Assembly: GCF_023380205.1 (NCBI RefSeq)
Contig: NZ_CP093361.1
Location: 806,001 to 870,000 of the forward strand
Source of the DNA: Nicoliella spurrieriana
Lineage (GTDB): Bacteria; Bacillota; Bacilli; Lactobacillales; Lactobacillaceae
Reading direction: 5' to 3'
Length of the DNA stretch: 64,000 nt
The notes beneath the pieces are model-generated. The model ran no database searches. It worked only from the letters and a program-made list of their open reading frames with translations, and was not told the origin of the DNA. Position 1 is the first letter of the stretch; each line of letters opens with the position of its first letter. Both the position numbers and the translations under genes were made by a program. Positions 3,032 to 27,600 of the stretch are shown one piece after another.

Positions 3032-4846
3032 ATGAAACGATGGGGATTGATCACGACCCTAATGGCAGCGACAGTGTGTTGGTGTGGCTTGACACATCAG
3101 CATGCTTCAGCAGCCCAGCAATACTATGCTAATTTCAATCAAAATTCAGTGGCAAATCCGCCCGAGTTACAATCGGGAAACGGGTTAACGCCCACGAATC
3201 AACCGGCCACGACGGTGGGCAGCATCCCACCGACCGTGGTCTATAACGGCAAGTTCAATCAGACCCAATACCAGATGGACCAGCAAAACCCCAGTCACAG
3301 CTACACCGATCAACAGGGGACGACGACCTTTAATACCGACTACTACCTCCCGAACGGCTTCCACGTTGATTCGCGGGAGTACGGCAATTACCAAAGCAGT
3401 GCCCAGATCGGTGATAATATGTATTTTGTTGAATCATTAGGCGACAAGGTCAAGCAGGGGGCGATTGCGAAGTACAATACGACCGACTTGACGAACCTAG
3501 GGGTCCTGGGTGGCAACGGTGACGGGCGTGATTTAATTTGGAAGGCATATACATATACCTCCCCATACACGGCCTATGGGCAAGCCAACTTAAAGCTGGC
3601 TGCTAACTACCAATCGGTGTTAAACGATGCGCAAAACAGCGATAATGACTCGCAAAATGCGGTCCAGAATGCAAGTGCGCAGGTGGCTAGTGACCAACAG
3701 GATAATCAGGCGTACCAAGCCGCGTTGCAAAAGATTACGAATGCTGCTGACCAATATGCTGCTAAGGTCCAATCAGCATTGGTCAAGCAACGCCTGTTCA
3801 ATGCGAAGATTACGAAGCGGCTCGCGGCTAGTAACTACGTGGCCTACTTTAACCAGGTCACGGCTACGAGCCTGAAAACCGCCAATCAAGTCACTACCAA
3901 GCGCAAGCAGGTGGTCAAACGCTTGCGGAAGGCTAAGCCGGCCCAACGCAAGGCGCTTATGAAGCAGTTAAAGCAACTGACGGGGCGCCAAACACAGCTA
4001 AGGGCGACCGTTAAGGCGGCCAAGGTGGCGTTAAAGCAGTTCAATCAGGGGATCGGGAAACGGTATTTGACTGCGACCCAGAACGTGAACGACTCGAACC
4101 AGTTGGTCAACCAGGACCAATTAGACGTGCAAACGGCTGAGCAGAACGTGACCCATAACGTGCAGTCGCTAGAGGCCGAACACGCCCAGTATTTGAAATA
4201 CATGGCAATCGTAGATGCGGCGCAGGTGAGTCCGTTGTTAAATATCGGCCACGGTCAGACGTTGTCGTATAATCCGGTCACGCAGAACCTCTATTTGGTC
4301 CAAGACGATACGCTGGCCAATCTGCCGGCGGGCGGGACGAATACGATTACCGAAATCAATCCGACCACGTTGCAGCCGATTAAGCAGTTCAACTTCCCGT
4401 TGATCAATGGAAATGCAAATTACAGCATTAATACGCTGACCTTTGATACGGCCGGGAACGCCTACTTTGGCCGCAAGGAGTCGGTCGTTGAAGCCGGGCA
4501 GAAGAGTTTTTCGACCTACCAGATCTACAAGGGGACGCTGAATGAAACCACCGGGGCGGCCAATTTTAGCGCCGTACCGCAAAACATTAACTGGGGTGGG
4601 TATAGTAACCAAAACCTTGATTATGATGCATATAACAACCGGATGTACATTGTTTCTGATAATATCATCACCTCGGTCCCATTAGACAAGCTGGTGGCGG
4701 GGACGCTCCAGCCAAGTGACGTGCACTACATGTCGTTTGGGATTAACCGTGAATTTGAGGACCTGTCGTTTGATGCGCAGGGGTACGGGTACCTACTGAC
4801 GCTGTGGAGTCCGGAAGTGATGAAGTCACAGGCGCCGTTGGATTAA
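3032..4846 (+). CDS. secreted beta-propeller-like protein with an inserted coiled coil
   Basis: A protein of 604 residues. A signal peptide is clear: Lys-Arg near the start, a hydrophobic core, and likely cleavage after ASA at about residue 28. A Gln/Asn-rich linker follows. Residues about 110-185 and 395-600 contain blade-like segments (aromatic-Gly-Asn-rich, such as LSYNPVTQNLYLV and LDYDAYNNRMYIV). The two halves are separated by about 200 residues of Lys/Arg/Gln/Ala-rich helix, likely coiled coil. There is no LPXTG or membrane anchor at the C-terminus, so the product is probably released or held non-covalently. GGCGGTG serves as ribosome site. Function is not recognised; a role in wall or polysaccharide binding would be a guess. 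Confidence 0.7.
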   Translation: MKRWGLITTLMAATVCWCGLTHQHASAAQQYYANFNQNSVANPPELQSGNGLTPTNQPATTVGSIPPTVVYNGKFNQTQYQMDQQNPSHSYTDQQGTTTFNTDYYLPNGFHVDSREYGNYQSSAQIGDNMYFVESLGDKVKQGAIAKYNTTDLTNLGVLGGNGDGRDLIWKAYTYTSPYTAYGQANLKLAANYQSVLNDAQNSDNDSQNAVQNASAQVASDQQDNQAYQAALQKITNAADQYAAKVQSALVKQRLFNAKITKRLAASNYVAYFNQVTATSLKTANQVTTKRKQVVKRLRKAKPAQRKALMKQLKQLTGRQTQLRATVKAAKVALKQFNQGIGKRYLTATQNVNDSNQLVNQDQLDVQTAEQNVTHNVQSLEAEHAQYLKYMAIVDAAQVSPLLNIGHGQTLSYNPVTQNLYLVQDDTLANLPAGGTNTITEINPTTLQPIKQFNFPLINGNANYSINTLTFDTAGNAYFGRKESVVEAGQKSFSTYQIYKGTLNETTGAANFSAVPQNINWGGYSNQNLDYDAYNNRMYIVSDNIITSVPLDKLVAGTLQPSDVHYMSFGINREFEDLSFDAQGYGYLLTLWSPEVMKSQAPLD

Positions 4847-4888: not shown

Positions 4889-4960
4889 TTTTGGAATGAA
4901 AAATCAAGGGGGGCTTTTAGGTTGGCTACTTACTATGCTATACTCAGGTTACTTAATTAA

Positions 4961-5045
4961 CTGCAAGGGGAGCCGTTTGGCTGAGAGTAGGTCCGTCCTT
5001 AACCCTTATGAACCTGATCTGGTTAGTACCAGCGTAGGAATGCAG
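4961..5045 (+). promoter_or_regulatory. TPP (THI-box) riboswitch
   Basis: The diagnostic elements appear in order: GGGGAGCC, GGCTGAGAG, ACCCTTATGAACCTGATCTG, and GTTAGTACCAGCGTAGGAA, closed by CTGCA/TGCAG at the ends. This matches the thiamine pyrophosphate aptamer. An extended -10 (TGCTATACT, 4937-4944... ending at 4944) lies just upstream. Between aptamer and gene, the hairpin 5106-5113/5120-5127 ends beside the AAGGAG ribosome site (5129-5134), and no U-tailed terminator is visible, so control is probably at translation initiation. Known behaviour of the family: expression falls when TPP is abundant. Confidence 0.95.
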
Positions 5046-5144
5046 CGACTTTGATTTTAAATGGAAACTTTTTCAATTTGCGGTGGTGAATTGGGTTCTC
5101 AGTTTAATTAAGCCAAATTGCTTAATTTAAGGAGAGATGTTTTC

Positions 5145-6461
5145 ATGGAAAATGATCAAGCAACCACTGATTTGTCCACCAATGACTTAAAATGGGGACA
5201 AACATTTCTTGCTAGTATTCAACATATTTTTGTTTCAAACGTGTGGTTAGACCCGATTTTTGTTGCGTCCACTGCGGGGCTATCACTAACACTATCCACT
5301 AACTTAGTGAATGCAATTTTTATTGCATCTGGGTTGGTGACCATTATTCAAGCGACCAAATTAGTACGACTTCCAATCGTTCAGGGGCCCTCTGCAGCTT
5401 TTGATGCATTGATGATCAATGCGGGAAAGACGGGGACCCTGCCAGCTGCAGGCGGATCGATTTTACTGAGTGCTATTTTGGCGTTTTTTTTAGCAATTAC
5501 GGGATTATTGGGGAAGCTGACCAAGTGGTTAACGCCCGCAATTACCGGGACCATTATTTTTCTTGTGGGGATTTCACTAGCCAGCTTCACGTTAGAAGAA
5601 TTTTTGGGCGGGAATCCGACTGCTGCAAGCTTTGCTGCCCCTAAGACACTGTTAGTAGCGATTGTCACCGCTGCCATTGTGGTGGGGCTCTCCATCTTTG
5701 GCCGGGGCTTTTGGCACCGCTATTCATTCTTGATTGCGCTTGTGGTGGGGGATGGATTGGCCTTTGCGACTGGGATGATCGACCTCTCGGGACTGGCGCA
5801 TAAGCCCCTCTTTGGGTTCCCACAATTATTGCCGTACGGAATGTTACGGTTCAACTGGACGTTATTTATTACCTTCTTCATTGCCTATTGTGTGGCAATC
5901 ATCGAAGCCATTGGGGTGTATGAGGCCTCGGCGGATGTGACCAAGACTAAAATTGACCAAAAGCGAATTGAAAAGGGGATTGCTGGTGAAGCAGCGGGTT
6001 CGATTCTTTCTTCAATGATCGGTGGGTTCCCAACAACGGCCTTTGCTCAAAACCTTGGGGTAATGAAGCTGACCGGGATTCATTCACGCAAGCCAATCCT
6101 ATTGGCTGGGAGCTTGTTATTAGTGTTCGGCTTTATTCCTAAATTAGGGGCCTTTCTATCACTAACCCCGGCACCAGTAATTGGTGGAATGTTCTTACCA
6201 GCCGCAGCAACGCTGATCACGACTGGCTTTGCGATTTTAAAACGGGCTGAGAGTAACGATACGAATAATTTGATCATTGGGTTATCGATTATGTTGGCAA
6301 TCGGCATCCCTGCCTATGCGACTAATTATTCGGGGGCACTGAGACCACTATTAACGAATAACATTTTGCTTGGGGCAATTGCTTCCGTATTACTACACAT
6401 TTTGTTAGTGGCAGTGCCTAAAGCGTTTCAACGGCGGGAGGTCAATCATGAATCAAATTAA
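5145..6461 (+). CDS. NCS2-family (nucleobase-type) permease under TPP control
   Basis: A polytopic membrane protein of 438 residues. The NCS2 signature Q-N-x-G-x-x-x-x-T-G is present (QNLGVMKLTG, near residue 302), as is the QGPSAAFDAL segment near residue 80. NCS2 carriers import xanthine, uracil and similar ring compounds by cation symport. The start is ATG 5145, 10 nt after AAGGAG; an upstream in-frame TTG is less likely. It is the first gene of the riboswitch operon and overlaps the next gene by 14 nt. Because of TPP control, the substrate is inferred to be a thiamine-related ring compound (pyrimidine or thiazole) and not a common purine. Substrate identity is not shown by sequence. Confidence 0.85.
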   Translation: MENDQATTDLSTNDLKWGQTFLASIQHIFVSNVWLDPIFVASTAGLSLTLSTNLVNAIFIASGLVTIIQATKLVRLPIVQGPSAAFDALMINAGKTGTLPAAGGSILLSAILAFFLAITGLLGKLTKWLTPAITGTIIFLVGISLASFTLEEFLGGNPTAASFAAPKTLLVAIVTAAIVVGLSIFGRGFWHRYSFLIALVVGDGLAFATGMIDLSGLAHKPLFGFPQLLPYGMLRFNWTLFITFFIAYCVAIIEAIGVYEASADVTKTKIDQKRIEKGIAGEAAGSILSSMIGGFPTTAFAQNLGVMKLTGIHSRKPILLAGSLLLVFGFIPKLGAFLSLTPAPVIGGMFLPAAATLITTGFAILKRAESNDTNNLIIGLSIMLAIGIPAYATNYSGALRPLLTNNILLGAIASVLLHILLVAVPKAFQRREVNHESN

Positions 6462-7566
6462 AAATGATGTCTTAACATTTATTCAACAGCATCCAGCAAT
6501 TGGGACTCCTAATGACGACCAAGACTTTAATCAGCTTGCGTTAAAAATTTTTAAATATCAGTTTGAGCATAACTTACCATTTAAAAGCTATGCGAAGCAC
6601 CAGCGCAAAACACCGCTGTTGGTACATGACTGGACTCAAATTCCGTTGATGCCGATTCGGGGGTATAAATACCTGTCGTTATCCGCTACTCCGATTACTC
6701 CTGATGAGCCGGTATTTATGTCCAGTGGGACCACGGATCCGACCCACCGGAGCCGGAATTATCATCCGACGTTTGAGACCTGGGATGCCTCGATGAAGGG
6801 GCCGTTCAAGCAATTTGTGATGCCCGATCGAGACCGGATGCGCATCATCGGATTATTTCCGGGGGCAGATGTGAATCCACACTCCTCGCTGTCAAGATAC
6901 GTTAGTAAGGCACTGGCGTTCTTTGGTGATGATCAGAGCCACATTTACGTTAATGAGCACGCCATGGACTTTTCCAGCATCGTCGGCGCCTTGCAAACAG
7001 CGATTAAGCAGAACGAGCCGGTAATGTTATTGGGGGCTAGTTTCTCGTACGTGCACCTATTGGACTACCTAAGGCAACACGACCTGCACTTTCAGTTGCC
7101 CGCTGCGAGTCGCATCTTTGATACCGGGGGCTTTAAGGGCCAATCCCGGGAATTGGGCTTGAATGACTTATTACAACAGCTTAGTGCAACGTTTGGGGTC
7201 GCACGGGACCACCATATTAATATGTATGGGATGACCGAGGTTTGTTCGCAGTGTTACGACCGCAATCTTTTTGATATGGCTCACCATCAGCCCGTTCATG
7301 ATACTAAGTTGGCTCCCGCCTGGGTCCGGATTCGGATTCTAGACCCAGACACCTTGGCGCCAGTTCAGGCTGGACAAACGGGCTTAATTGCCTACTATGA
7401 CCTGACTAATTGGAATTCATGTGTGGGGATTTTAACTGAAGATCTGGGGGTGCAATCTGCTGCTGGGTTTAAATTACTGGGGCGGATTAAGGGGGCCGAG
7501 GCCAAGGGCTGTTCAATTGCGATTGATCAACTATTGACTGCGACTAACGCCAGGGGGCAAAAGTAA
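6448..7566 (+). CDS. LuxE-like acyl-protein synthetase / carboxylate-activating enzyme
   Basis: A 372-residue relative of LuxE, the adenylate-forming enzyme that activates a carboxylic acid with ATP and passes the acyl group to a cysteine and on to LuxC. Visible features are the nucleotide-binding SSGTTDPT motif (about residues 92-99), YGMTEVCSQ (about 256-264) and the C-terminal GRIKGAEAKGCS with Cys355, which corresponds in position to the acyl-accepting cysteine of LuxE. A GGGAGG ribosome site lies inside the end of the permease gene. The stop overlaps the LuxC start (TAATG). No luciferase genes are nearby, so bioluminescence is not implied; the acid substrate is probably thiamine-related. 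Confidence 0.85.
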   Translation: MNQIKNDVLTFIQQHPAIGTPNDDQDFNQLALKIFKYQFEHNLPFKSYAKHQRKTPLLVHDWTQIPLMPIRGYKYLSLSATPITPDEPVFMSSGTTDPTHRSRNYHPTFETWDASMKGPFKQFVMPDRDRMRIIGLFPGADVNPHSSLSRYVSKALAFFGDDQSHIYVNEHAMDFSSIVGALQTAIKQNEPVMLLGASFSYVHLLDYLRQHDLHFQLPAASRIFDTGGFKGQSRELGLNDLLQQLSATFGVARDHHINMYGMTEVCSQCYDRNLFDMAHHQPVHDTKLAPAWVRIRILDPDTLAPVQAGQTGLIAYYDLTNWNSCVGILTEDLGVQSAAGFKLLGRIKGAEAKGCSIAIDQLLTATNARGQK

Positions 7567-9035
7567 TGCCAGCAACCATTAAAATCATCCCGCTTGATAT
7601 CTTTAAATTACCGGATTCAATTAGCGTTCAATCATTTCGGTATCAATCAGTCACGGTGGGGACCACGGTGTATTCACTCCGGTATCCGGTAATCGATGCG
7701 GATGCGATTGCCCACACCGCCCGCTTAATTGAAGCCCACCAACAAAGCGATTTAGCCAAACGCACCGTTGCTGAAATCATTGACGTGATCGACCGCGCCA
7801 TTCAGCTCTGGACGCAGCCCCAATATCCACAGCGTTGCCTAGCAATGCAGTTGATTCCAGTATTGACTGGGTATAATGCTGAAACAGTTGCATTAGAAAT
7901 GAAGCGCTTTGTGCGGGTCTTTCGGAAGAAGGAACTCCTGCGGTTCGTGGATACGGAGCTAGACCAGCCCGGGATTTTGGATCAATTTCATCCACAGAAA
8001 ATTGGAAGTAGCACCAAGGCGTTTGGCCCGAACGGGATTTTCCACGTTTTCTCAGGGAATATTCCGGGGTTGCAAATTTGGCCGCTAGTGATGGGGATGC
8101 TAGTTAAGTCAGCGAACCTAGGGAAGACGTCATTAGCTGAACCGCTCTTCCCAATTTTATTCATGCAATCCATTGCAGCAATCGATCAGCGCCTCGCGGA
8201 TTGCGTTGCAATTATGCCATGGCAGGGGGGAACGACTGCATTAGAACGAGCCGCAATTGACAATACCGATGCCACGATTGTTTATGGCTCCAATCGAGCT
8301 GTTGAGGGCATCCGGAAGCTGGTTCCGACTGAAAAACGCTTTCTCCACTATGGATATAAGATTAGCTTTGCAATGGTTGGTAAAGAGGCGCTCACTGCTG
8401 AATACTATCCTAAAACCGTCAAGCGCGCCGTGGAAGACGTTGCGGTGTATGACCAACAGAGTTGTTTATCCGCGCAAGCGATTTTTGTGGAACGCAATGG
8501 TGCGGTGACGCCCCATCAATTTGCTAAGTTAGTGGCGACTGAATTACAAAATTACCAGCTAAAACGGCCGCGGGCGCAGTTGACGACCGAAGAAGCGGCT
8601 GCAATTGTGCGCCTGCGGAATGAATATCAACTAAAGCGGGTTCAAGGGGCTTCCGTAGATGTGATTGAAAGTGCGCATGATACTAGTTGGACCGTTATTT
8701 TTCATGACCATCCGGGCTTTGCGAATTCACCGTTGAACCGGACGGTCAATATCTTTGCCATTGGCCACCTGGAAGATGTGAATCAATACCTAGCGCAATA
8801 TCAACAGTTCCTGCAAAGCTGCGGCCTAGCGGTGGCCCCGGAACGGGTGTTTCCGCTTGCAAATCAATTAGGCCGCATCGGTGTTGACCGCGTCTCTGCA
8901 CTGGGTGAAATGACCCGTGCAAAACCGGGCTGGCACCATGACGGGGGCTTTAACCTATTAAGCCTGTTGCACTTTGTGGATGTTGAACGCAATGCTGAGG
9001 ACTTAGCTGAACACTATGATCCAGATGTCGAATAG
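7566..9035 (+). CDS. LuxC-like acyl reductase (aldehyde-forming)
   Basis: A 489-residue LuxC-family enzyme. It reduces an activated acyl group to an aldehyde with NAD(P)H, through a covalent thioester. The family core is seen: VFSGNIPGL and KSANLGKTS (nucleotide-binding part, residues about 160-185), the catalytic segment YDQQSCLS with Cys300, and a C-terminal WHHDG. The gene overlaps luxE-like by 1 nt, so the two are translationally coupled, as expected for partners that hand over an acyl group. It is followed 11 nt later by an SDR. LuxC together with LuxE forms a carboxylate reductase; the natural acid here is not known. Confidence 0.87.
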   Translation: MPATIKIIPLDIFKLPDSISVQSFRYQSVTVGTTVYSLRYPVIDADAIAHTARLIEAHQQSDLAKRTVAEIIDVIDRAIQLWTQPQYPQRCLAMQLIPVLTGYNAETVALEMKRFVRVFRKKELLRFVDTELDQPGILDQFHPQKIGSSTKAFGPNGIFHVFSGNIPGLQIWPLVMGMLVKSANLGKTSLAEPLFPILFMQSIAAIDQRLADCVAIMPWQGGTTALERAAIDNTDATIVYGSNRAVEGIRKLVPTEKRFLHYGYKISFAMVGKEALTAEYYPKTVKRAVEDVAVYDQQSCLSAQAIFVERNGAVTPHQFAKLVATELQNYQLKRPRAQLTTEEAAAIVRLRNEYQLKRVQGASVDVIESAHDTSWTVIFHDHPGFANSPLNRTVNIFAIGHLEDVNQYLAQYQQFLQSCGLAVAPERVFPLANQLGRIGVDRVSALGEMTRAKPGWHHDGGFNLLSLLHFVDVERNAEDLAEHYDPDVE

Positions 9036-9046
9036 GGGGAAATGAA

Positions 9047-9808
9047 ATGTTACTTGATAATAAAGTGGCCCTGGTCACCGGGAGTAGCCGTGGAATTGGG
9101 GCTGAGATTGCAAAACAGTTCGCGAAACAGGGGGCGATCGTTGCAATTAACTACCTCCATAGTAAGACCCGTGCAGAACGGGTGGTAGCTGAGATTAATG
9201 CTGATGGTGGGACCGCATTTGCGGTGCAGGCTGATGTCCAAGATTCAGCTGCGGTGGATGCCATGTTGGCCCTAATCAATGATCAATTTGACGGGGTGGA
9301 TATTGTGGTTAATAACGCCCTCAAGCACTACCGCTTTAATCCAAAAACTAGAAAAACGAGTCAAGCGATGGACTGGACTGATTATCAATCCCAATTGGAT
9401 GGGAGTCTAAAGGGCGCCTTTAATGTTTGCCACGCTGCGGTTCCACTGATGAACGGCGAAGGGCGCATTATTAACATGGTCAGTAATTTAATCGAATCGC
9501 CGGTGATCCCTTACCATGACTACATTACCGCTAAGAGCGCGTTAATGGGCTTTACCCGGTCGCTAGCGGCTGAAGTGGGGCGGTTGGGCATCTTGGTGAA
9601 CGCAATTGCCCCAGGGTTAACGTATCCTACTGATTCCAGTATTGAAACGCAGAATGATGTTCGTGAATCCATCGTTAGTAACACCCCGACCGGCCGGCTC
9701 ACCGTGCCACAAGATATTGCCGGGACTGCGACCTTCTTGGCTTCGCCACTAGCTAGTAACATTACCGGTCAGTGTTTATATGTCGATGGTGGCTTGGTGA
9801 TGCATTAG
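9047..9808 (+). CDS. short-chain dehydrogenase/reductase (FabG-like)
   Basis: A classical SDR of 253 residues: TGSSRGIG cofactor loop near the N-terminus, NNA near residue 88, catalytic Ser146, Tyr159 and Lys163 (YITAK), and the C-terminal GQCLYVDGG typical of FabG-like enzymes. An AGGGGGA ribosome site precedes ATG 9047. As last gene of the TPP operon it plausibly reduces the aldehyde made by the LuxC-like enzyme to an alcohol. A fatty-acid role is less likely because no other fab gene is present. Confidence 0.85.
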   Translation: MLLDNKVALVTGSSRGIGAEIAKQFAKQGAIVAINYLHSKTRAERVVAEINADGGTAFAVQADVQDSAAVDAMLALINDQFDGVDIVVNNALKHYRFNPKTRKTSQAMDWTDYQSQLDGSLKGAFNVCHAAVPLMNGEGRIINMVSNLIESPVIPYHDYITAKSALMGFTRSLAAEVGRLGILVNAIAPGLTYPTDSSIETQNDVRESIVSNTPTGRLTVPQDIAGTATFLASPLASNITGQCLYVDGGLVMH

Positions 9809-9818
9809 TTGAATAAGT

Positions 9819-9853
9819 AAAAAAATGACTACCATTACCGGTGGTCATTTTTA
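9819..9853 (+). terminator. terminator of the TPP operon
   Basis: AAAAATGACTACC pairs with GGTGGTCATTTTT across 6 nt, with a T-rich tail. It marks the operon end. Confidence 0.85.
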
Positions 9854-10424: not shown

Positions 10425-10490
10425 ATTTATAATCAATAAGTTATTTAAAAGCTTTTTGATTTTAATTTTATAAAAATGGAGTTGATAATC

Positions 10491-10925
10491 ATGGAACATA
10501 CATGGTTAATGCAGGAAGATGTGTTTGCTTACTATGTTGCAAAATTTGAATTTAAGAATTTGAATTTAAATAACTATTCAATTGCCGCTAATCAGATTCA
10601 AACAACATCTGATAGTCTTAGGGCAAGAGTTCAAAATGCTAGATATGTAATCAATAGTATTAAAAATAACAAAAATAACAACAATAATAACAACAATAAC
10701 AACAATAACAACAACAAAAACAATAACAACAACAATAACAACAATAACAACAATAACAACAAAAACAATAACAACAATAATAATATCAAGGGATTAAGTC
10801 ATGCTGCAAATCAAACAGAATCAGTAGTAGTTTTTATGGAGGAAATGGAAAAACATTATCAACCTACAAATGCTAATGATACTTTTGAACAACATTTACA
10901 AAAATTCTTAAATGCTACCTTGTAA
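10491..10925 (+). CDS. small protein with a 40-residue asparagine tract
   Basis: A protein of 144 residues from ATG 10491 (TGGAG ribosome site; an ATG at 10476 overlaps that site and is unlikely). Residues 1-58 resemble small HTH/Myb-like proteins that start with a Trp and an acidic pair and contain a SLRARVQNARYV-type recognition helix. Residues 59-98 are 37 Asn and 3 Lys. Residues 99-144 (KGLSHAANQTE and on) resume what looks like the same domain family, so the tract appears to be inserted into an ordinary small domain. The domain assignment is from memory of the family's look and is moderate at best. Function unknown. Confidence 0.65.
   Translation: MEHTWLMQEDVFAYYVAKFEFKNLNLNNYSIAANQIQTTSDSLRARVQNARYVINSIKNNKNNNNNNNNNNNNNNKNNNNNNNNNNNNNNKNNNNNNNIKGLSHAANQTESVVVFMEEMEKHYQPTNANDTFEQHLQKFLNATL
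10665..10784 (+). repeat. in-frame AAC/AAT/AAA microsatellite (poly-Asn)
   Basis: 120 bp of AAC, AAT and AAA codons. The three Lys codons are spaced 15 codons apart (K-N14-K-N14-K-N7), so the tract also has a 45-bp period. Such a tract can expand or contract in 3-bp steps without breaking the frame. Confidence 0.9.
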
Positions 10926-15584: not shown

Positions 15585-15656
15585 CTACTAAAACCATGAT
15601 TAAAAACGTTGACCAAAATAAGCATTATCAATCACGTTAAGGAAGGTGCAATATTG

Positions 15657-18600
15657 ATGGGATCAGAATCTAATAAAATCGATGCCAAGGCACAATCAAT
15701 GCAATCTGACGGCCCCGCTGCCGCCCACCAAGCAGATGCAGTTAGTTCCCTGACTGCTAAGTCTGAATTATTGGTTAATTCAGTTGCTAAAAAGGTGGTG
15801 TTGGAATACGCCCGTTCAGCGATTGCAGCTGCCGTCGATTCAGCCAGCCAGCGCGCTGACCAATTAGCCGCTCCCGCTAGGAGTAGTGCCAGCGTTGCAC
15901 TCTCACAATTCGCGGATTCGGCATATACCAATGCGGTAAACTACGCAAATCCATCCGAAGCAGTTGCAGGGGTGGAAGCATTCACTGCGAATGTCGACCA
16001 TGCCATCGACACCGCTAATTTTTCGTCTGCCAATGACGTGGTCATGCATGCGGCGAACTCACTGGTTAATAAGACCACGGTGTTAGGGGCCTCTGCTGCC
16101 GATGACACTAAGCTAACGATTAACAGCGCCTTTGATCAAATCAGCACTGAATTAAGTCAGCAGGCTGACAACATTGCCGGTGCCGATTCGTTAGCCCAAA
16201 GTGGGGTGGACCACCTAGAATCACTGACCAGTGCGGCCGTGTTATCGTTTGCTAAGCACGAAATGGAAGCGACCTACCTCCAGTTCAAAGACGAATTGTT
16301 CCAATTATCCGACGCCGTGGCTCAGGATGCGATCGCAGAAATTCACAGCGTGACCGACCCGACCTATGCGTGGGTCCAATCCAACGCCGCAGCGCCTGCA
16401 AGCGCCAGTGCCCAGGTTAGTACGGCGATTACTTCCATGAATTCGATCTTCGCCAGTTACGGAAACGTCCTAGTATCAGCCGGAGTTGCTGAATACGCTA
16501 GTAACGCCTATTCCGCAGTGGCTTATTTAAGTGGCGATCAGTTATTGAACGCCAACCGGATGATCGATAGTGCCGCCCGGGTACTGTTGAACAATTCGAT
16601 TGCTACCAGTAACATCGATGCCCAATCGATTAATCAAATCTACGGCTTGATTCCAGTGGCTTCGAATGCCATCAAGAGCATTACCGACGAGGTGAACCAC
16701 TCGTTTGCCGACCGGCAGTTAAGTGCAGCTACCGTTTCAGCGGCTGCTACGACCAGTTCGTTGACGCCCGCCGGGAAGGTCCACGTCGACTTCTCGATCA
16801 ATTCATACGTTCAACAGGCGCAAAGCGAAGTCGCCGCAGTCGTTAACGACCCCGCCACGTTGAACGCCACCCTGAGTTCGGCCACCAGTACGATTGCTTC
16901 GATGGCGACCGCTGCCATGGTTGCCGATCCATACGCATCCGCTGCCCACCAGTTGCAAACGACGGTGGCAAGCGCCGATGAACAGCTGAGCCGGCTAAGT
17001 GGGGTGGCCCAGTTAAACGCCACCAGTGCGGTCCATGTCGCCACCACCAGTGCGTCCGCAGCGTTAGATGCGAACCACTTTGATGCTGCGCAATTGACGG
17101 AGACGGTGCAGACGATTGGTGAACAGGTCGACGGAATTATCGACCACTACGCGAATTCGGCTGCCGTTGACCAGCTAAATGGGGCCTATTCCGCAGCTGA
17201 TTCGATGGTGGTCCAGTTGGGGACCAAGGCTGAGCGCAGTGCCGCCCGGACTCAAATCGAAGCCATTCGTGACTCCGCTGCCCAGGTGATTGCAGCGCAA
17301 AGCGACGTGGATTCGGTCGTTGCTTCCGCTACGGATACGCTCCATTCGACTGCCGTGCAGTTGATTCAAAGTGATCCGAACCGTTCGGCCCACTACGCCG
17401 TCCAAATGGTCTTGCGTTCAGCGACTGACAAGGGCGCCTACCTGGATGCCATCAGCCGCGATAACGCTGTCAGTGAGGTTGCGATGGTCGCAACCCGGGC
17501 CAGTTCGGCGATGGTGAAAAACGCCGGGCGCGCCAGTGCGTTAGCCAATGACGTTGAGCAGGCCTCGCTTGCTGCCGACCGGATCATTGACCACTATGCG
17601 GTCGAAGATGCCCGCTCGAAGACCCACAGCATGGCCAGCAGCGCCCACCAGCAAATGCAATTCGTCAGTGACGTGGCCTTTGCTGACCAAGCGGCGAGCC
17701 AGGTGGCGGCCGTGCAAAATTCAATGAACATGACGCTTTTCCATAATAGCGACCAACTAGCGGTTGTTTCACAAGCAGTTGTTGATGCCCAAGCTAATTT
17801 GACGAGCATTGCGGACTACTACGTCCAAACCGACGCGGTGGCCGCTGCCCACGCCAAGCTAGCTTCGTTGGCCAGTACCGCTGCTGTTACCACTGCGGAT
17901 CTAGATGAGGCTAATCGTGGCAACGCCAATCGTGAAGTCGCCCACACGCTCCAAAGCGCCCAGGCGGCGTTAAGCGCCACCAGTGGCCACCACCAAGTTG
18001 CTGAGCAGGCCGCTGCTTCCGTGACGGCGACATTGAACCACTACACGCTCGCCTATACTAGCGTGGCGGTTAGTAGCGCCGCTAGTTCTGCTAATCAGCA
18101 CTTAGCCCAAGTCGGCATTGGTGACGATCAAACGGCGCGTGAGATTGCAAGCTTCGTGCAGGCAACTGATGCTAACATCGCAACGGACCGTGATAACTTT
18201 GCCAACGTCTTGTTGGACGTCCGCAATGGGATTGCACAGGTCAATTCCTACGTGGATGCAGCGGTCAAAAAGAACCCGCATGCCTCGGCGGTCAACACCG
18301 TCCAGAGCACGGCGGCGCGCCTAACTGCTGAACGCTCAGCTGCCAACTACGACTTTGCGAACTTCAGCAGTGCGGTGGCCAAGACGACCAGCGTGAACTG
18401 CAAAACGATTAGTCAAATTAATGATACCGCCACGATCGACCAGTTAATGTCGGTCGCGGATACTGAAAACATGCACCACTACCAAAGCAACGTGGCTGCG
18501 TCAGCTACTGCAGCGCTGTCCGCCGTGGCTAAGTCCGTTCGGCAAAAATTAATTGCCGTCGGGGTCACGATTGACGATCCGTTGGATGAATTGATGGCAG

Positions 18601-21600
18601 AATACGCTGAAATCATCAACCGGGATGCAAGTGATGCCCGCTTTGCTGCCATTGACCAGCAGTTGGGGACGCTTGAGCTCCAATCGCTATTTGATAATAC
18701 GATCAAGGACCATCCGCAGGCTGCTAAGCGCTACGAACTAGAATCGATGGCCAGTGCCGCCAGTTCCGTGGCGGCTGAATACCTTGCTGAATCAGTCGAA
18801 TTAGACCGTGATCTCTACCGGGTCGTTAGTTCGGCTACGCAGCAGGTGAATGCCTCTGCCGATGAAGCGGGGATGGCCAGTGCGGTTGCGACCGCCAGTG
18901 CCGCAATGGATGCGGTCGTGAATGAAAACGTGGCCGCCAGTGCGCTTCAATTGATCGATTCAGCTGCTGACAGTGCGAACCGCCGGGTAGCCAACATCAA
19001 GGACACCGGGAAGTCGATCGATGCGCAAAGTGAAATTCGCTTTAATGCCGAAACCGGGATCAAACTCGTCAAGGCCGATGCGCAGACACCTAAGTTAGTC
19101 AACATCGACGTGCGGAACACGTTAATGAAGCTGACCTCGATGACCAGCGCCGCCGTTGGTGATGATACGGTCGCCGCTACGTTAGACCAGATCAATTCGA
19201 TGGTCGCAAGTGCCCGGGCCAGCGTTAGCTTTGCTGATTCCACCGCTGACTTACGATTTGCTAGCCAAGTCGATCAATACGTGGACCAGGCCCGTTCTGC
19301 GGTTGCTGGGGTTGAAGACCGCAATAATGTCGCTCCCCACCTTGCAGGGCTTGAAGTCCAGTTAACGACGTTGACCGACCAGGTCAAGCGCGATTCCGTG
19401 AATGCGCAAATGATTGATGCCAAGGCCGATGCCAAGCGCAGTTTGGCGACCTTGCGTGGTCAAGACCAATTAGCATTGAACGGCGAATTGGATGCGATTA
19501 CGGACCGCGTTGCTGATGCGATCGATCACGATTTAAACGATCCTGAAAACTTAAAAACTGATATTCAAAACGGCTTAACGGCCATTGCCCAGTTGGTGGC
19601 GGACGCGATCCAAAAGGATCCGTATGCGACTGCCCACCAGTTGGTTCAATCTGCCGTGGCCACTACGACCAGCACTGCAGATGCATTAAGCGGCAGTGTT
19701 GCTAATAATCTCCGCAGTGAAATTGCAAGTGCCAATAGCCACTATGCAGACCAATTGCCCGCCGCTGACGATGCGTCCGTGTCAGCAGTTGCCAGTGGGG
19801 CGGTGCAGGCACTGACGATGACGACCAATAATTACGTGGCGGCATACGCTGCCAACGTCATCAATGTAGCACGGGAACGGATTTTAAATGCGTCCCGGGC
19901 TTATTCAGGTGTGTCTACTAATACGTTAGAACGCCGTTTCTCTGCAATTTTAGGGATGGCAATGGGGGTCATTCAAAGTGACTTCAACGACTTGAACCTC
20001 ATTCATTTAGATATTCAAAACATCATTGCCCAACTCGAAGCCGCATTTGAAGAGGCGGTCGCTGCTGATCCAAATGGTCAATACCAATTAGCGGTCACTA
20101 AATTAAAGCAATCCGCCACTGCTGCGGCAAACGTTAGCGACCAGCTTACAGCAGCGAACCTCTCCAGTGCGTTAAATAGTGTGGCCAGTGCAGCTGATGG
20201 GAATTCATTAGCTGCAAGTGCCCAGATGCAAAGCGTGGTCAATGCATACCACGCTGACCGTGCCGTAGCGGCCGTTAGTAGCGCCGCAACGGCTGCGCAA
20301 CTCCGCGTTCTGCGCTTGAACGACGTTAGCAAGATCAGTACGTCGGCTGCCATTGATGATTTGGTCAGTTCTGCAAACGGTGAAATCAGCGCAGATGCTG
20401 ATTATCCACGCTACACCAGCTTGGATGCTGCCGAGGGGATTCAAGCCATCAACGCCCGCTTGGCTTCCGCCGTGGCTAACGATGCCACTGCGGTCACCAG
20501 TAGCGTTGCTGCTAGTGCCACCAGCGTTGCGTTCGAACGGATGGGGTCAATGACAGCTGCCGCTTCATTAGTTGCTACGAACCAAATTAAGCGGGTCGTC
20601 GACCGGGCCGTTACGAACCAACAACCGACTGAAACGCTGGTTCACCAGATCGACCAAGTTGCCGATCGCTACCTAATCGATTCAGCCCAAGCGCGGTTGA
20701 ACCAAACTGCCGATGCGGTCAACGACCAATTGGACACCAATCCAGACCAAGAACCAATTATCAAACGGATTCAAACGATTACCAAGGAAACGATGGCAAA
20801 GGTCAGGGCGGACGTGAAGATGCCGGCCTACCTCGCATTAGACGTTACCGACGGGGTCGCTGCATTGAACGAGCTCGTATCCGAATACCAAACTGATCCG
20901 TTAGTTTCAATCAAAGCCGAGATTAACTCCGCTGCTCAGGACCTGACCACGATGGTTCCTGCAACCGGGAGCGTGAATAGTAATGTCAGCAGTGCAGCCG
21001 CCAGCGTTGCGCGGACTGCCATTCAAAACATTGCTAACGTGGCTGATGATTCGAACGCCGTTGCGGCCTTTACGCAGTCGGCCGCCGATCAATTTGACTT
21101 GCTCCGCCAATCCTACGTTGCCGAATCCGCAACGGCGGTGGTGCAAAGTGCCATCAGTAGTGCGCAGGTAAGTGCGGCCATGATCGCTGATGAATCGATT
21201 GCAGCCCAGTATCACGACCAGTTCTCAGGGATTGCGGACAGCTTTAACCGTCAATTACAAGCTGACGCCAGAAATGCTAGTTTGACCGCGCTCGATATTG
21301 AAAACGCAGTCCTTGAAATTAACCAGATTACCGACCAGGCCGTTGCCAGCGACTCGCAGGCTTCCGCTGCCACTACGTACAGTACGGCGGTGAGCGGGGC
21401 GCTAAGCGCTGCCTTTAGGAACACCGCTTTAATGACGACCAGTCAAGTGGATAACTACCACAGCGCAATGGCCAAGGTCTTACCAGATTCAGAGGAGGTC
21501 CTAAATGCCTCCCAAAGTGCCGTGGCTGACCAGGTCAGTGCGGTCCAGACTGCCATTGCTTCGGTAGCCAACCGCTACTACGGGCTATGGGCCGTTAGTG

Positions 21601-24600
21601 CCGTCGATCAAGCCGCCAGTGACCTCCTGAGCGGGGCCGCTAATTATAACGGCAGCGTCGCTAGTTGGGCTGCTTCACAGGCGACGAATTACCAAAGCAG
21701 CTTTAATGCAAACCTTGCGAAGGATTCGGCCGCGACCGATTTAATCATCCTAGACGCCCAAAACGCGGTCAGTGCCATCAGCGCGACTGCTTCCAAGGCG
21801 GCTGAACAGGATTCGACCGCCTTTGCGAACATTGAGATCAATGCGCAGATCAGCAGTGCTAATTCAGTCCTCAGCGAATTAACGGGGCATACCGACAGTA
21901 CCGCTGACATGCAAATGAACAGTGTCGCCCACCAGGCGAACGCTAGTTTGAACTCCGTTTCGAACAACTTAAATACGGTCATGAAGATCGTTAGCTCGAC
22001 TGCGGTCGCCATTGATACCGTAGCCAACATGACGATTGCTAGTTCCGCCCATTCGCTAGTGGCCAGTGCGGCTGATTCATTAATGCAACGCGCCGGTCAT
22101 TTATCGCGGGGGACCACCCAGGCCGAATTGATCGACTTGGTTAAGCAAACCGCATTGACGATCGATGATGCCATCGATTCGAACGCTAGTTACCTGGTCT
22201 CCGTGTCGATGGCCGCTGAAGCCGGCGTCGAATCCATGGGGTCCGCAATGCTTGCTGATTTGAAGCAGGACCGCTCCGCCAGCGCCCAAATTGCGTTTGA
22301 ATCACTAGCATCCTCCGCAGCTGATCAAGTGGGGGCGCTCGATTCGTTCGCCAGTGCGAACTTCAGTAGTGCCGTGGGCAGCATTAGTAACCGCACGACG
22401 GCCTACTTAGCGGACCAATTAGACAAGCCCAAACGGGTCAATTCTGAAATTAGATACGCCGGGAAGACGATTCAAAAATTAATGCGGCGTGCGATTGCGC
22501 AATCCGCGACCGATTGGGTGACCAGTCAGGCCGCCGGGATTCGTGAACAACTAAGCACGATTGCCGACCAACCGCTCCGTGACCGGGTCGATAGCCAGAT
22601 CGCAGCGCAGTTAGCAAAGGCCGAGGTCATGATTACAAGCGATGCGTTTGATTATCAGCTTGCAAGCCTGGATGCCGACAACCACTTAAGCGCCATTAAT
22701 TCGCTGGCTGCGTCTGCATTTGCTAGTGATACAGCGGCCGTCCAATCTACGGCCCATCAACAAGCGTTAGACTCTGCCTATGCCAAGGTGGGTTCCCTTA
22801 GTGGCACCCGTTCGGTCGCCTTTGATAGTCAAATTGCGGCGCTTGATGCCAGTGCTGCCGATTACGCCGCCCAATTGGATGCGGTCGGCAACCACTTCAT
22901 CATGACGTCTGCCAACGCCGTGTTGGATGCGACGGTTGCCAGTGCAAATCACCGCTTGGCGGTCATTAACGATGTCAATGCCCAAGCCGAAGTATTGAAG
23001 GACATTGAGCACCGCCAGTCCCAAGCTAGCGTTGCAATCAGTGCGGACGCTCATCATTCTAAGTTTGCCTCCCTGGATGCCAATAACGCCGCCAGTGCGA
23101 TTGATTTAATGGTCAACAAAGCGGTTGCTAACGATTCAATTGCAAGCGCCACCGTCATGATCGACCAGGCGGCTAGTTCGGTCACCGCTGAAATGCAGGC
23201 GGCTTCGATTGACCAACTGCTCCGCTTTGAAAAGCAGGTCCAGATGTTGACTAACAATGCCGAACAGGCGCTCTTAGGACCATTTACCGACAATGACAGC
23301 TTGGTATCACAGGCCGAAAGCCAGTTGGTCAGGTTAGCGAACAACTACATGGTGAGTTCGGCTTACAGTGCCGTGGGTTCATTGGCCAGTGCCGCCAGTG
23401 ACTGGACCAGTGACCTTGCGGTTGCCGATTCATTGAACGTGAAGGCCTACATCGATAGTGCGCTCAATTCCGCTGATTCACAGATTAGCGTGCATAGTGC
23501 TGCACCATCACTAGTGGCCGATGCGGTCAATAACGTTGCGAACACGGTTGAACACCTAGCCAGTGACGCGGTCAATAATTCACCAATGGCTGCCGCTAAG
23601 CATAGTTTGGCACACTTAAAGAGTAGCGCTGCCACCATTGACCAATCGCTGAGTGGGCTGGATGCGCAAAACTTCAGCAGTGCCATTAATAGTGTGGCCC
23701 AAAGTGCAGTCGAACGCTTCACTGAAAACGGGGCTACGATTAACCAACAGGCATTGCAAAAAGCAGCACACTTAATGACCAACCTTTCGAACCTCCACGC
23801 AGCGCAGGGGGCAATGGACCAATTGCTACGTGCGGCTGAAAATGCCGAACACAAGATTGACTACCTCGCTGATAATGAAAAGCGGGGCTTGGCATTTACT
23901 GACGTTGCCAACACGATTGAGAAATACCGGGACTTGATTGAATTTGATATTGACCACCTCGCCCTAATTAATTTGGATGTAATTAACGGGAAGGCCAAAC
24001 TAGCAGCAATTGCTAGTGCCGCCGTTAAGGACGATGTGGTGGCCCGTGCAATCGATCGAATGGATCGCCACGCCAGTTCCGTTACCAGTCAAGCCAGTGG
24101 ATTGGATAGCTTAGCTAGCGCTAATTTAAGCAGTGCAATCAACGACTTGACCGCCCGGGCGATGACTATGATTCAATCCACCGATGACCATCCGGATACG
24201 CTGAACAGCCTTAGCCAATCGGCCACCGCGAAAATGGATTCACTGCTGGGGAGCTACGTAACCGCTGCCGCCCACGAACAATTAGCAAATGTGCGGGCCC
24301 GTGTCGATGAGCAAGCCGCGCTAATTGTTGATGTGGACCGCGCCAGTTCGCTTAGTACCGAATTGGACGCGCTGCAAAGTAGTGCTGCCGCCCAGGTTAG
24401 CCATGATGCCAACCATGCGGCGTTCATTGATTTAGACATTGCAAATGCGGACAGCGCCATGCAACGGGTTGCTAGAAATGCGGTCAATGGTGACGTAAGC
24501 GCCAGTGCCGCCGCTCAAGTGCAGGGATTATTAGCCACCGCCACCAGCAGAGCCCAACCGTTGGTCGGCTCTGCTGCCGCCAACTTCAGTAGTGCGATGA

Positions 24601-27600
24601 AGAGCATGGCGAGCCGGGCCAACCGTGAGACCAGTGGGGTTTATGACTACCAGGATCTAGACAGCATCCTAGCTGCCACTAGTAAGGAGGTCAGTTCGAC
24701 GGTTATCACCTACCTCGTTGACTCCGCCCATGAACGATTGTCTGCCACCGTAAACGTTGCCAGTACGGCCGTGAACGTGATCGACGGGCAACTGCGCGCG
24801 GATGCTAATCGACTGATCGCATCGGCCGCTAACTCCGCTACGCAGATGGTAACTACTGATTCGCATGATGACCAGTTGGTCAGCTTAGATGCGAAGGAGG
24901 CCAGTCAAACGATTCTGGACCTTGCAGACTCAGCCGTGGCCAGTCAACCATTTGCAAGCGCTAGTTCGGTCATTGCAAGTACGGCCACGGTCGCAATGCA
25001 GCGCGTGGGGAGCTTAACTTCCTTTGCCGCCGCAAACTTAAGCAGTACCATGAACCGCTTGAACACCCAGGCCCGTGCGAGCCTAATCGCCAACGGTGCC
25101 GATAGTAAGTCGGCCCAACGGGTCCAATCCAGTGCGATCATGGCAATTAACGAAGTGGCCAATAGCTACGTCGCTAGTTCCGCTTCGCAATTGATTGCGT
25201 CTGCGACCGATTCCGCTTCGGCCATCATCGCGCGCTTTGATAATCAAGATGCCGCTTCGACGGCCAATGACGCCATTGATAGTGCTCTTGCGACGGTTGC
25301 AAATGACTTCGCAAAGGACCGGAACCAACCGGACTTGATGGCCCTCGATGCCACCAATGCGATTAATGCGATTCAATCGGCAGCGCTCTTTATTACCACG
25401 ACCGATGAAGTGGCTTCGGGTAACATTTCGATCAGTAACGCGGCTGAATCAGCCTACGCGGTTGCGGACGAATGGGGCCGGACCACGCAGTTCGATAAGC
25501 AGGTCCGCGATATTATTGCCGATTCAACGGGCCGGTTTGCGAGTGGCGAAGACGTTGACATCGTGGTGAGTGAGGCATCTGATGCGATCGCAAACGTGGT
25601 CAGCTACCTCATCTTAGCCGTTGCCAACGCCCGCTTAGCCGCATTGATTGCCAATGTGGGAAATAATTTGAAGCGCTTGTTAAATGACAAGCAGTATCAA
25701 GCCGCCCAATTACGGTTGTTAGAATTTAACGAAGTTGCTAAGCATACGATTCAAAAGGACGTTGCTAGTAGCCAGTTGATCCAATTAGACCTCACCAATA
25801 TCGAACGGGATTTGACCCGCTTGCAAGCCGAGCTAGTAGCCGTGGACGGCAACGCGGTTGCGTTGAGCGCCGTGGCTGACCATGCCAGTGCAGCGACGAC
25901 CAATCCTTACGTGCACGGCAGCAGTGACGACTACCTGAACTTTGTGAGTGCCGTTAATACGGTTGTCCGCGACTTCGGGGCCGAGCTCGATCAAGCCACT
26001 AGTGCTGCGGCGATCAACCAAATTGATTCATTGACCCAGTCCTACGTTACCAGCCAAGCCACCAATGCAATTGATGCCACGGTGGCCAGCTTAGACGATC
26101 AGGTCAGGGATTTGAATAACTTCGTAATCCAATCATCTGCTTACCGGGTCGTTCATTCGATCGCCAGTCAAGCCAGCGTTAACGTGCAAAGTGATTACGC
26201 TGACTTTAGCGCGGTCTCATTGGATGCCGATAACGCAATTAGTGCCGCCACTTCCGTGATGGATAATGCGGTCACAAACGACTCGGTCGCCTCCGGGAAA
26301 CGGGCTGCCCGTTCGATTTACTCGTCGGCAGCAAGCTTTGCCGTTGGCCTGAGTTGGTCCGATTCAGTGGAATTTAGCATGGCGCTTGCCAGTCAATCCG
26401 CTGCGACTTCCTACGGGCCAAATGCCAATAATAGTTACTTAGCGAATTCAACGGCTCGCTTTGTGGACCAAATGACCGCAAGCTACGTTGCAAGTTACGC
26501 TAATACGGCCTTGCATAACGCAGCCAGTCAGGCGCTTGCTAACCTGGGGCCCGTGAACGCCCAGACGAAGACAAACTTTACCACCGTGTTGCATAACGTG
26601 GTGGGTGATTTGATCGACAACGTCGCAAGCGATAACGCCGATCAGGAATTGGTCGATCTCGACGTGCAAAACGGGATCACCATGATTGACAGCCTCGCTG
26701 ATTCGGTCGTCCGTGCCGATCCTGGCGCAGCCGGCCAATACATCATTGCCAGTGCAGCTAATTCCGCTACCAGCGGGATGGCCTTGGGCGCTGAAATGGA
26801 TGAGGCGAACTTCACCAGTGCCATCAATAGTGTGGCCAACCAAGCCAGCATTTCCGTTAACCTGGTCAAAAAGGACCTCCGGTTAGTCAACAAGGCGGCT
26901 AACTCAGCTGCCCGGAAGATGAACCACCTGGCGACCGAATATCGGAATTCACTCGCCCAATCGACGTTGTACAGTACCTTTGATTCGGCTGCGCTGGTCG
27001 CCGAAAGCTTTGCCAATCCTGCAGTTCAATCACAAGCGGCCAATGACGTTCAATCGGCGACCGAACACTTCAGTTCGCTGCTCGATGCCGATGCTGCTAA
27101 CGCTAGTTATGTCGACTTGGACCTAGCTAATGGGACCGGTGAAATCGACCGGTTAGTGGCCAGTGCTGCGAGCCAGGACCCAGCGGTTCGGACCCACCTA
27201 TATCTGGATTCAATCGCCAGTGATGCTGCGCAACGCTTGGTCACGTTTGCCGATGATGTTCAATTGAACTTCACCAGTGCTGCCAGTCGGATTACTAATC
27301 AGACCGTGGGACTCGTTTCCTACGCTGATGATCCAACCATCGTTTCCGCTGCAATGAGTTCGACGGCTACGACGTTCTACCGGATGGCCAACAGTGCGGT
27401 CGTTGATTCTGCATCTGCGACCGTTAGTACGATTGCCTCCGATGCGAGTCGGGCCCTTCAGCTGTTCACCGATGATAACGTGCGTCAACAATTGCGTGCA
27501 GACATTCTACGCGTCGAATCCGCTGGACTTGCAAACATCAATAACGATGTGGCCGACGATGACTTGTTGGCCCTAGATATTCGGAATGTACAACGGGATG

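Follow-up and report, generated by a model that had tools for sequence, protein, structure and literature searches.

Enzymes of the LuxE type activate an acid by adenylation and bind its acyl group to a cysteine. Enzymes of the LuxC type accept this group and reduce it to the corresponding aldehyde, which a short-chain dehydrogenase (SDR) or an alcohol dehydrogenase (ADH) can turn into an alcohol. Here we describe an operon of Nicoliella spurrieriana, located in a 64-kb stretch of DNA (contig NZ_CP093361.1, positions 806,001 to 870,000; hereafter “the window”, to whose own numbering all coordinates refer), in which genes for LuxE, LuxC and SDR proteins and a permease follow a thiamine pyrophosphate (TPP) riboswitch. 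The closest described counterpart of the two Lux enzymes is the LuxC-LuxE fatty acid reductase of luminous bacteria (Photobacterium, PDB 7xc6), which belongs to the same two families and has the GCS and DQQxC cysteines in common with the operon. The window operon differs from that system in that it adds a TPP riboswitch, a permease and an SDR, and its enzymes fall below the cut-offs of the fatty-acid equivalog models. We think it likely that this is a TPP-controlled salvage operon for the pyrimidine half of thiamine (vitamin B1), converting 4-amino-2-methylpyrimidine-5-carboxylate to 4-amino-5-hydroxymethyl-2-methylpyrimidine (HMP).

Described routes of thiamine salvage resemble parts of the proposed one. 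According to the available text of PMC5627462, the TenA/YlmB route for base-degraded thiamine likewise recovers HMP from a damaged pyrimidine and is TPP-regulated there. That route is hydrolytic, whereas the one proposed here is reductive; TenA is found, at E 1e-15, in 20 of the 35 operon-bearing genomes that were profiled (the window's and 34 from the LuxC scan described below). The same text describes uptake of HMP and base-degraded thiamine by ThiXYZ/ThiY, and NMT1/THI5-type proteins are also encoded in 8 of the 42 further loci related to the window operon. In contrast, the window and 28 of those 42 loci have an NCS2 permease, a kind of transporter not named in Table 1 of PMC6593275, which covers B1 pathway variants and transporters in 2,228 gut genomes and gives HET and HMP as vitamers. 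Salvage by ThiM and ThiW, the latter a thiazole transporter by annotation in that table, also consists of uptake and activation of one half of thiamine, and both proteins are encoded in the host genome; it differs in serving the thiazole branch and in lacking a reduction step.

The words LuxE, LuxC, NCS2 and carboxylate are absent from the main text of PMC6593275, and LuxE is absent from the main text of PMC3766115, a TPP regulon survey whose regulon members are listed in a supplement outside that text. Neither LuxE nor LuxC appears in the available text of PMC5627462, on thiamine metabolism in paenibacilli, or of PMC12442306. Literature searches returned no recognized description of LuxE/LuxC in thiamine salvage among the titles and abstract openings of the matches listed, a set that leaves older subscription papers outside. 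The operon may add a new variant of thiamine-precursor salvage, parts of which may already be recorded in a regulon database or a subscription paper. The SDR, taken alone, may already have attracted notice, since Rodionov and others are said to have listed, in 2002, a THI-controlled reductase, oarX, that could be this SDR.

The operon and its proposed route

The operon comprises the following features.

4956..5057, + strand: TPP riboswitch aptamer (RF00059), full length; 74.1 bits against a cut-off of 54.3
5129..5136, + strand: putative ribosome-binding site of the permease gene, AAGGAGAG, 8 bases 5' of the ATG at 5145, read by eye
5145..6461, + strand: NCS2-family permease (xanthine/uracil permease superfamily); PF00860, 255.7 bits
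6448..7566, + strand: LuxE-type acid-activating, acyl-transferring enzyme, Cys355; PF04443, 88.7 bits
7566..9035, + strand: LuxC-type thioester reductase, Cys300; PF05893, 364.4 bits
9047..9808, + strand: FabG-like SDR; PF13561, 191.9 bits
9821..9852, + strand: intrinsic terminator hairpin with a T-rich tail after it; 13 pairs, -16.6 kcal/mol, z -4.87

An earlier, sequence-only reading of this DNA had claimed a complete TPP aptamer. The RF00059 match bears this out, covering the full length of the model (1-105 of 105, E 1e-12), although it starts at 4956, 5 bases before the 4961 given earlier; no other Rfam match in the window reaches its gathering score. That reading had also described four tightly spaced genes with overlaps, an 11-bp gap and one terminator, in agreement with the coordinates and with the folded hairpin at 9821-9852: the NCS2 and LuxE genes overlap by 14 bases and LuxE and LuxC by 1 base, and a gap of 11 bases separates LuxC from the SDR gene. 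A simple terminator scan did not report the hairpin. The permease frame was listed with a TTG start at 5118, and we prefer the ATG at 5145 because of the putative ribosome-binding site upstream of it. A promoter scan found 16 candidates against a shuffle mean of 12.2 (standard deviation 4.1), which is no clear excess. Folding of the leader (5040-5160) was only modestly better than that of shuffled sequences (z -1.94), and nearly all invariant columns in an alignment of five leaders lie within the aptamer; for these reasons, we make no claim of transcriptional versus translational control.

All four proteins exceed their Pfam cut-offs (27 bits for PF00860, 24.9 for PF04443 and 21 for PF05893, and likewise for PF13561). 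More specific models are not reached: the permease is nearest to the xanthine permease PbuX (TIGR03173) but below its cut-off (327.4 versus 414.15 bits), and neither LuxE nor LuxC meets the model for its long-chain fatty acid counterpart (ligase NF052244, 82.4 versus 550 bits; acyl reductase NF052251, 111.9 versus 750 bits). The cysteines named from the sequence alone proved to be conserved. The LuxE residues G354-C355-S356 are invariant in 33 of 33 aligned rows and Cys355 aligns with the GCS of 7xc6_E, while Cys300 of LuxC is invariant in 34 of 34 rows and aligns with the DQQxC of 7xc6_A (window counted in both). In the SDR, Y159 and K163 are invariant across 27 rows (the window and 26 of 33 loci with an SDR), as are F97 and R102 within a conserved stretch, HYxFNPKTRKT, that may shape the pocket.

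Structural models agree with these assignments. The LuxC model (pLDDT 88.3) has 7xc6_A as its nearest structure. The nearest fold to the LuxE AlphaFold model (pLDDT 89.0) is the putative acyl-CoA ligase 4r1m, followed by PaaK and then ClxA with aminohydroxybenzoate adenylate, with TM-scores near 0.6; 7xc6_E is the only solved sequence match of LuxE, yet it is not among the best 50 fold matches listed. PaaK and ClxA adenylate aromatic acids, and their closeness to the model was counted in favor of a pyrimidine acid as substrate. A phenazine antibiotic biosynthesis protein (PDB 3hgu/3hgv/3l2k), which we take to be EphF/EhpF, also occurs, with ranks from 25 to 40, among the fold neighbors of LuxE. 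It resembles the proposed enzyme in activating a heteroaromatic acid for reduction, and differs in belonging to secondary metabolism and in not being known to be under TPP control. The models confirm the families without pointing to a substrate, and fold neighbors of this kind do not prove one.

From these families, we propose the following route. When TPP is low, the riboswitch would permit expression of the operon. The NCS2 permease would import a pyrimidine carboxylic acid, most likely 4-amino-2-methylpyrimidine-5-carboxylate, which LuxE would adenylate in an ATP-dependent step before transferring the acyl group onto Cys355. The acyl group would pass to Cys300 of LuxC, which would reduce it with NAD(P)H to an aldehyde, and the SDR would convert the aldehyde to HMP. 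ThiD would then phosphorylate HMP, and ThiE would couple the product to the thiazole. ThiD requires a hydroxymethyl group on the pyrimidine, so the matching acid is 4-amino-2-methylpyrimidine-5-carboxylate. The title of a 1964 paper by Neal and Pearson, as given among the references of PMC7780320, names this acid as a metabolite of thiamine in rat urine; a 1970 title by Amos and Neal, given among those of PMC7575681, names thiamine acetic acid and a formylaminomethyl pyrimidine. The sense of regulation, the substrate, the product, the cofactors and the direction of each step are those that the families and their linkage suggest, with the identity of the acid as the weakest link.

The window belongs to a 2.05 Mb genome of two contigs, which has three TPP switches besides that of the operon. 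These adjoin genes for a YkoE-like protein (PF09819), TenA and ThiW, and TenA is followed by ThiD, ThiE and ThiM; TPK is also present. A profile search of the host genome found no full-length match to ThiC or ThiG. Judged by these inventories, the host would make neither half of thiamine and would depend on salvage.

Linkage to the riboswitch among relatives

Evidence for a role in thiamine metabolism came from relatives of the operon. A scan of genome contigs for the LuxC protein by six short peptide patterns, a method of limited reach, yielded 34 loci from Bacillaceae and their relatives, Paenibacillus, Leuconostoc, Weissella, Fructobacillus, Bifidobacterium, Staphylococcus, Comamonadaceae and NC10. 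Among 301 genomes of the window's family, a LuxE profile matched 9, which comprise the window's own and include those of the Weissella and Fructobacillus loci; in 398 genomes of its phylum, there were three strong matches besides the window, plus 19 weaker ones. Of 11 further loci taken from the LuxE profile, 8 were new and 3 were repeats, as judged by identical match figures. The total is 42 further loci, or 43 with the window, from four phyla.

A TPP aptamer lies upstream on the same strand in all 42 loci in which it could be read, the window included; L014 starts inside LuxC, so that its upstream DNA is missing, and was left out of the count. Forty of these aptamers score at or above the Rfam cut-off, and those of L027 and L029 fall just under it (53.6 versus 54.3 bits). 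The aptamer of L019, found in L039, lies about 6 kb before LuxC and heads a run of thi genes. The sequence-only reading had named homologous clusters mostly lacking a TPP riboswitch as the outcome that would speak against it, and the reverse was found. The count is not circular, because loci were selected on LuxC/LuxE similarity alone. Tandem TPP aptamers precede the operon in L005, L006, L009, L020, L035, L036, L058 and L059, an arrangement that may sharpen the response.

As a control, seven of the 19 weaker LuxE matches were fetched (L064-L070, 27-29% identical). None of the seven has a TPP aptamer, although the upstream DNA of L068 is short (about 174 bases). A LuxC, SDR or NCS2 relative at E 1e-8 is likewise missing from all seven fetched stretches. 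In a tree of 48 LuxE proteins, one fully supported branch separates the 41 TPP-linked proteins from the seven others, so that the operon LuxE forms a clade of its own relative to those seven, in a tree that holds no luminous LuxE. L064-L070 represent a second LuxE group in the phylum, several members of which lie in frames of at least 900 codons.

These data bear on the possibility that the operon is an ordinary LuxC/LuxE fatty-aldehyde or wax system that stands behind a riboswitch by chance. Both enzymes do match the lux families, and their only solved sequence relative is the fatty acid reductase 7xc6. However, the scores against the fatty-acid equivalogs are far below cut-off, as given above, and the riboswitch is present at every testable locus across four phyla, making this explanation very improbable. 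A chance pairing of lux-type genes with a riboswitch was considered as such and is rejected on the same count.

Gene content and the proposed pyrimidine substrate

The composition of the 42 further loci indicates which parts of the module are fixed. LuxC is present in 42, LuxE in 41 (it is missing in the cut locus L014 and split in L020) and the SDR in 39. NCS2 permeases and ABC (ATP-binding cassette) transporters of the NMT1/THI5 type never occur in one locus, and neither is found in six: L006, L014 (cut), three Staphylococcus loci and L061. The NC10 locus L030 lacks an SDR and has a zinc ADH (frame 3241-4527 of that locus, + strand) after the riboswitch and before LuxE; the frame as predicted starts 5' of the aptamer, while the ADH domain itself lies 3' of it. 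The presence of an ADH in place of the SDR fits a final step from aldehyde to alcohol. No SDR is seen in L062 and L063, whose fetched stretches stop within the NMT1 gene, and one may be located further on. The SDR follows the ABC transporter genes in Neobacillus niacini (L024) and in the Comamonadaceae loci. With LuxC and LuxE constant, the SDR replaced once and the importer swapped, it appears that activation and the first reduction are constant, the last reduction nearly so, and the importer exchangeable.

Two variants were observed alongside these patterns. The Niallia locus L006 has two TPP aptamers, ThiW, LuxE, LuxC and SDR but lacks the NCS2 permease, and differs in this from L005, to which it is closely related. 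In Leuconostoc holzapfelii L020 and its repeat L060, the LuxE match is in two pieces in different frames; LuxE is whole in L058 and L059 of the same genus.

The sequence-only reading had proposed counting clusters beside thiamine genes. Such neighbors proved to be present at part of the loci: 17 of the 42 have at least one other thiamine-related gene nearby, counting NMT1-type binding proteins. The neighbors are ThiD (9 loci), ThiE (9), NMT1 (8), ThiW (5), ThiG (5), ThiM (4), ThiF (1) and YkoE (1). In three Niallia loci and one Neobacillus locus, ThiW follows the riboswitch and precedes the permease or LuxE; in L059 it lies downstream of the SDR. The order in Paenibacillus nasutitermitis (genome G015) is TPP riboswitch, ThiE/TenI-like, ThiO-like, thiG, thiF, NCS2, LuxE, LuxC, SDR, thiD, thiE; L019 and L039 thus place the module amid thi genes in a genome that lacks thiC. 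In Comamonadaceae, the order is TPP riboswitch, thiD, LuxE, LuxC, ABC genes, SDR, thiE, with thiG facing away, as does a ThiO-like gene in L041. In both sets of operons, the module appears to occupy the place of an otherwise missing pyrimidine source.

Additional support for the pyrimidine came from the gene inventories of the 35 profiled genomes. ThiD and ThiE are encoded in all 35, full-length ThiG in 33, TPK in 30, ThiM over cut-off in 29 and ThiC in 18. ThiC is absent from 15 of the 33 operon genomes that have ThiG, versus 18 of 132 genomes with ThiG in a sample of the phylum (Fisher p = 1.5e-4, uncorrected for relatedness). The phylum control scored ThiC and ThiG at E 1e-60, included incomplete genomes and had two operon-bearing genomes removed; the operon set spans more phyla than this sample. 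Six genomes, G015 and G023-G027, have ThiG, ThiD and ThiE but lack ThiC, TenA (at E 1e-15) and any ThiM over cut-off; G023-G027 have no TPK match either, in a search that did not extend to other thiamine kinases. Since such cells could make thiazole but lack ThiM to use free hydroxyethylthiazole and, in G023-G027, TPK to use free thiamine, only the pyrimidine would be missing, and a product of the HMP type fits best.

The sequence-only reading had left three routes open, and these inventories favor pyrimidine carboxylate to HMP over the other two. The first of those is thiazole salvage, in which 4-methylthiazole-5-acetate would be reduced to hydroxyethylthiazole for phosphorylation by ThiM. 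This would account for the occurrence of ThiW in some loci, for the frequency of ThiM among the genomes and its position near four loci, and for the presence of both genes in the host. We nevertheless regard it as quite unlikely, given that 33 of 35 genomes could synthesize their own thiazole with full-length ThiG, that the six genomes lacking ThiM over cut-off could not use the product, and that replacement of NCS2 by THI5/ThiY-type transporters points to pyrimidine. The second is repair of the whole vitamin, with thiamine acetic acid imported, reduced to thiamine and pyrophosphorylated by TPK. By a title in the reference list of PMC7575681, thiamine acetic acid has been reported as a metabolite in animals, and most of the genomes, the host's included, encode TPK. 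Against this, five operon genomes have no TPK match in the search described above, linkage to ThiD and ThiE (nine loci each) fits a precursor rather than the vitamin, and an importer of the NCS2 type, from what is known of the family, suits a single-ring substrate; this route, too, is improbable.

A broader alternative is that LuxE-LuxC-SDR produces or restores a different aldehyde or alcohol in thiamine metabolism, such as another substituted pyrimidine, or acts on the acid of a novel step. Regulation and linkage indicate only a role in thiamine metabolism, and the sequence itself does not identify the acid. This alternative is nonetheless unlikely: ThiD needs a hydroxymethyl pyrimidine, and the pyrimidine is the part that is missing in the ThiG genomes that lack ThiC.

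Several observations weigh against pyrimidine salvage. Five of the six decisive genomes (G023-G027) are metagenome bins in which absences could be gaps, G015 being from a named strain. ThiC is also present in 18 of the 35 operon genomes, where the route would consequently be optional. No other thi gene is seen within the fetched stretch of 25 of the 42 further loci, and ThiW, of the thiazole branch, is near five. In the host, ThiC and ThiG are absent while ThiM, TenA and TPK are all present, so its own genome cannot discriminate between the branches. Finally, LuxE has as its best fold match a putative acyl-CoA ligase whose substrate is not stated, and a ligase for an aliphatic acid, 2-hydroxyisobutyryl-CoA ligase, is also among the fold matches, lower down. 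Taking these points into account, we favor on balance a general reading in which B1 salvage across four phyla relies on LuxE-LuxC with an SDR or ADH to reduce the pyrimidine acid of spent thiamine, with import of the NCS2 or THI5 type, the module standing in for ThiC in some lineages.

Surroundings of the operon and significance

Two long frames on the + strand precede the operon. The frame at 3-1877 contains repeats that resemble, by eye, cell-wall or glucan-binding repeats, and that at 3032-4846 has no Pfam or NCBIfam match. Downstream, a small + strand frame at 10476-10925 with a long asparagine run lies over a microsatellite (10665-10783) and has no Pfam match. The + strand frame at 15609-34739 has a TTG start and 6376 codons, is rich in alanine, serine and aspartate, and perhaps encodes a giant repetitive protein; Tandem Repeats Finder, applied to 9800-36000, gave four rows, none of them inside this frame.

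To our knowledge, there is no known recycler of 4-amino-2-methylpyrimidine-5-carboxylate. If the proposed route is correct, this breakdown acid of thiamine, named in 1964, would gain a user among bacteria, and an enzyme pair known from light production would serve in vitamin repair. Some lineages would make their own thiazole and recycle the pyrimidine from acid left over by other organisms. The predicted B1 needs of gut and food microbes would change as a result, since HMP auxotrophs (ThiG present, ThiC absent) may be able to live on the acid.

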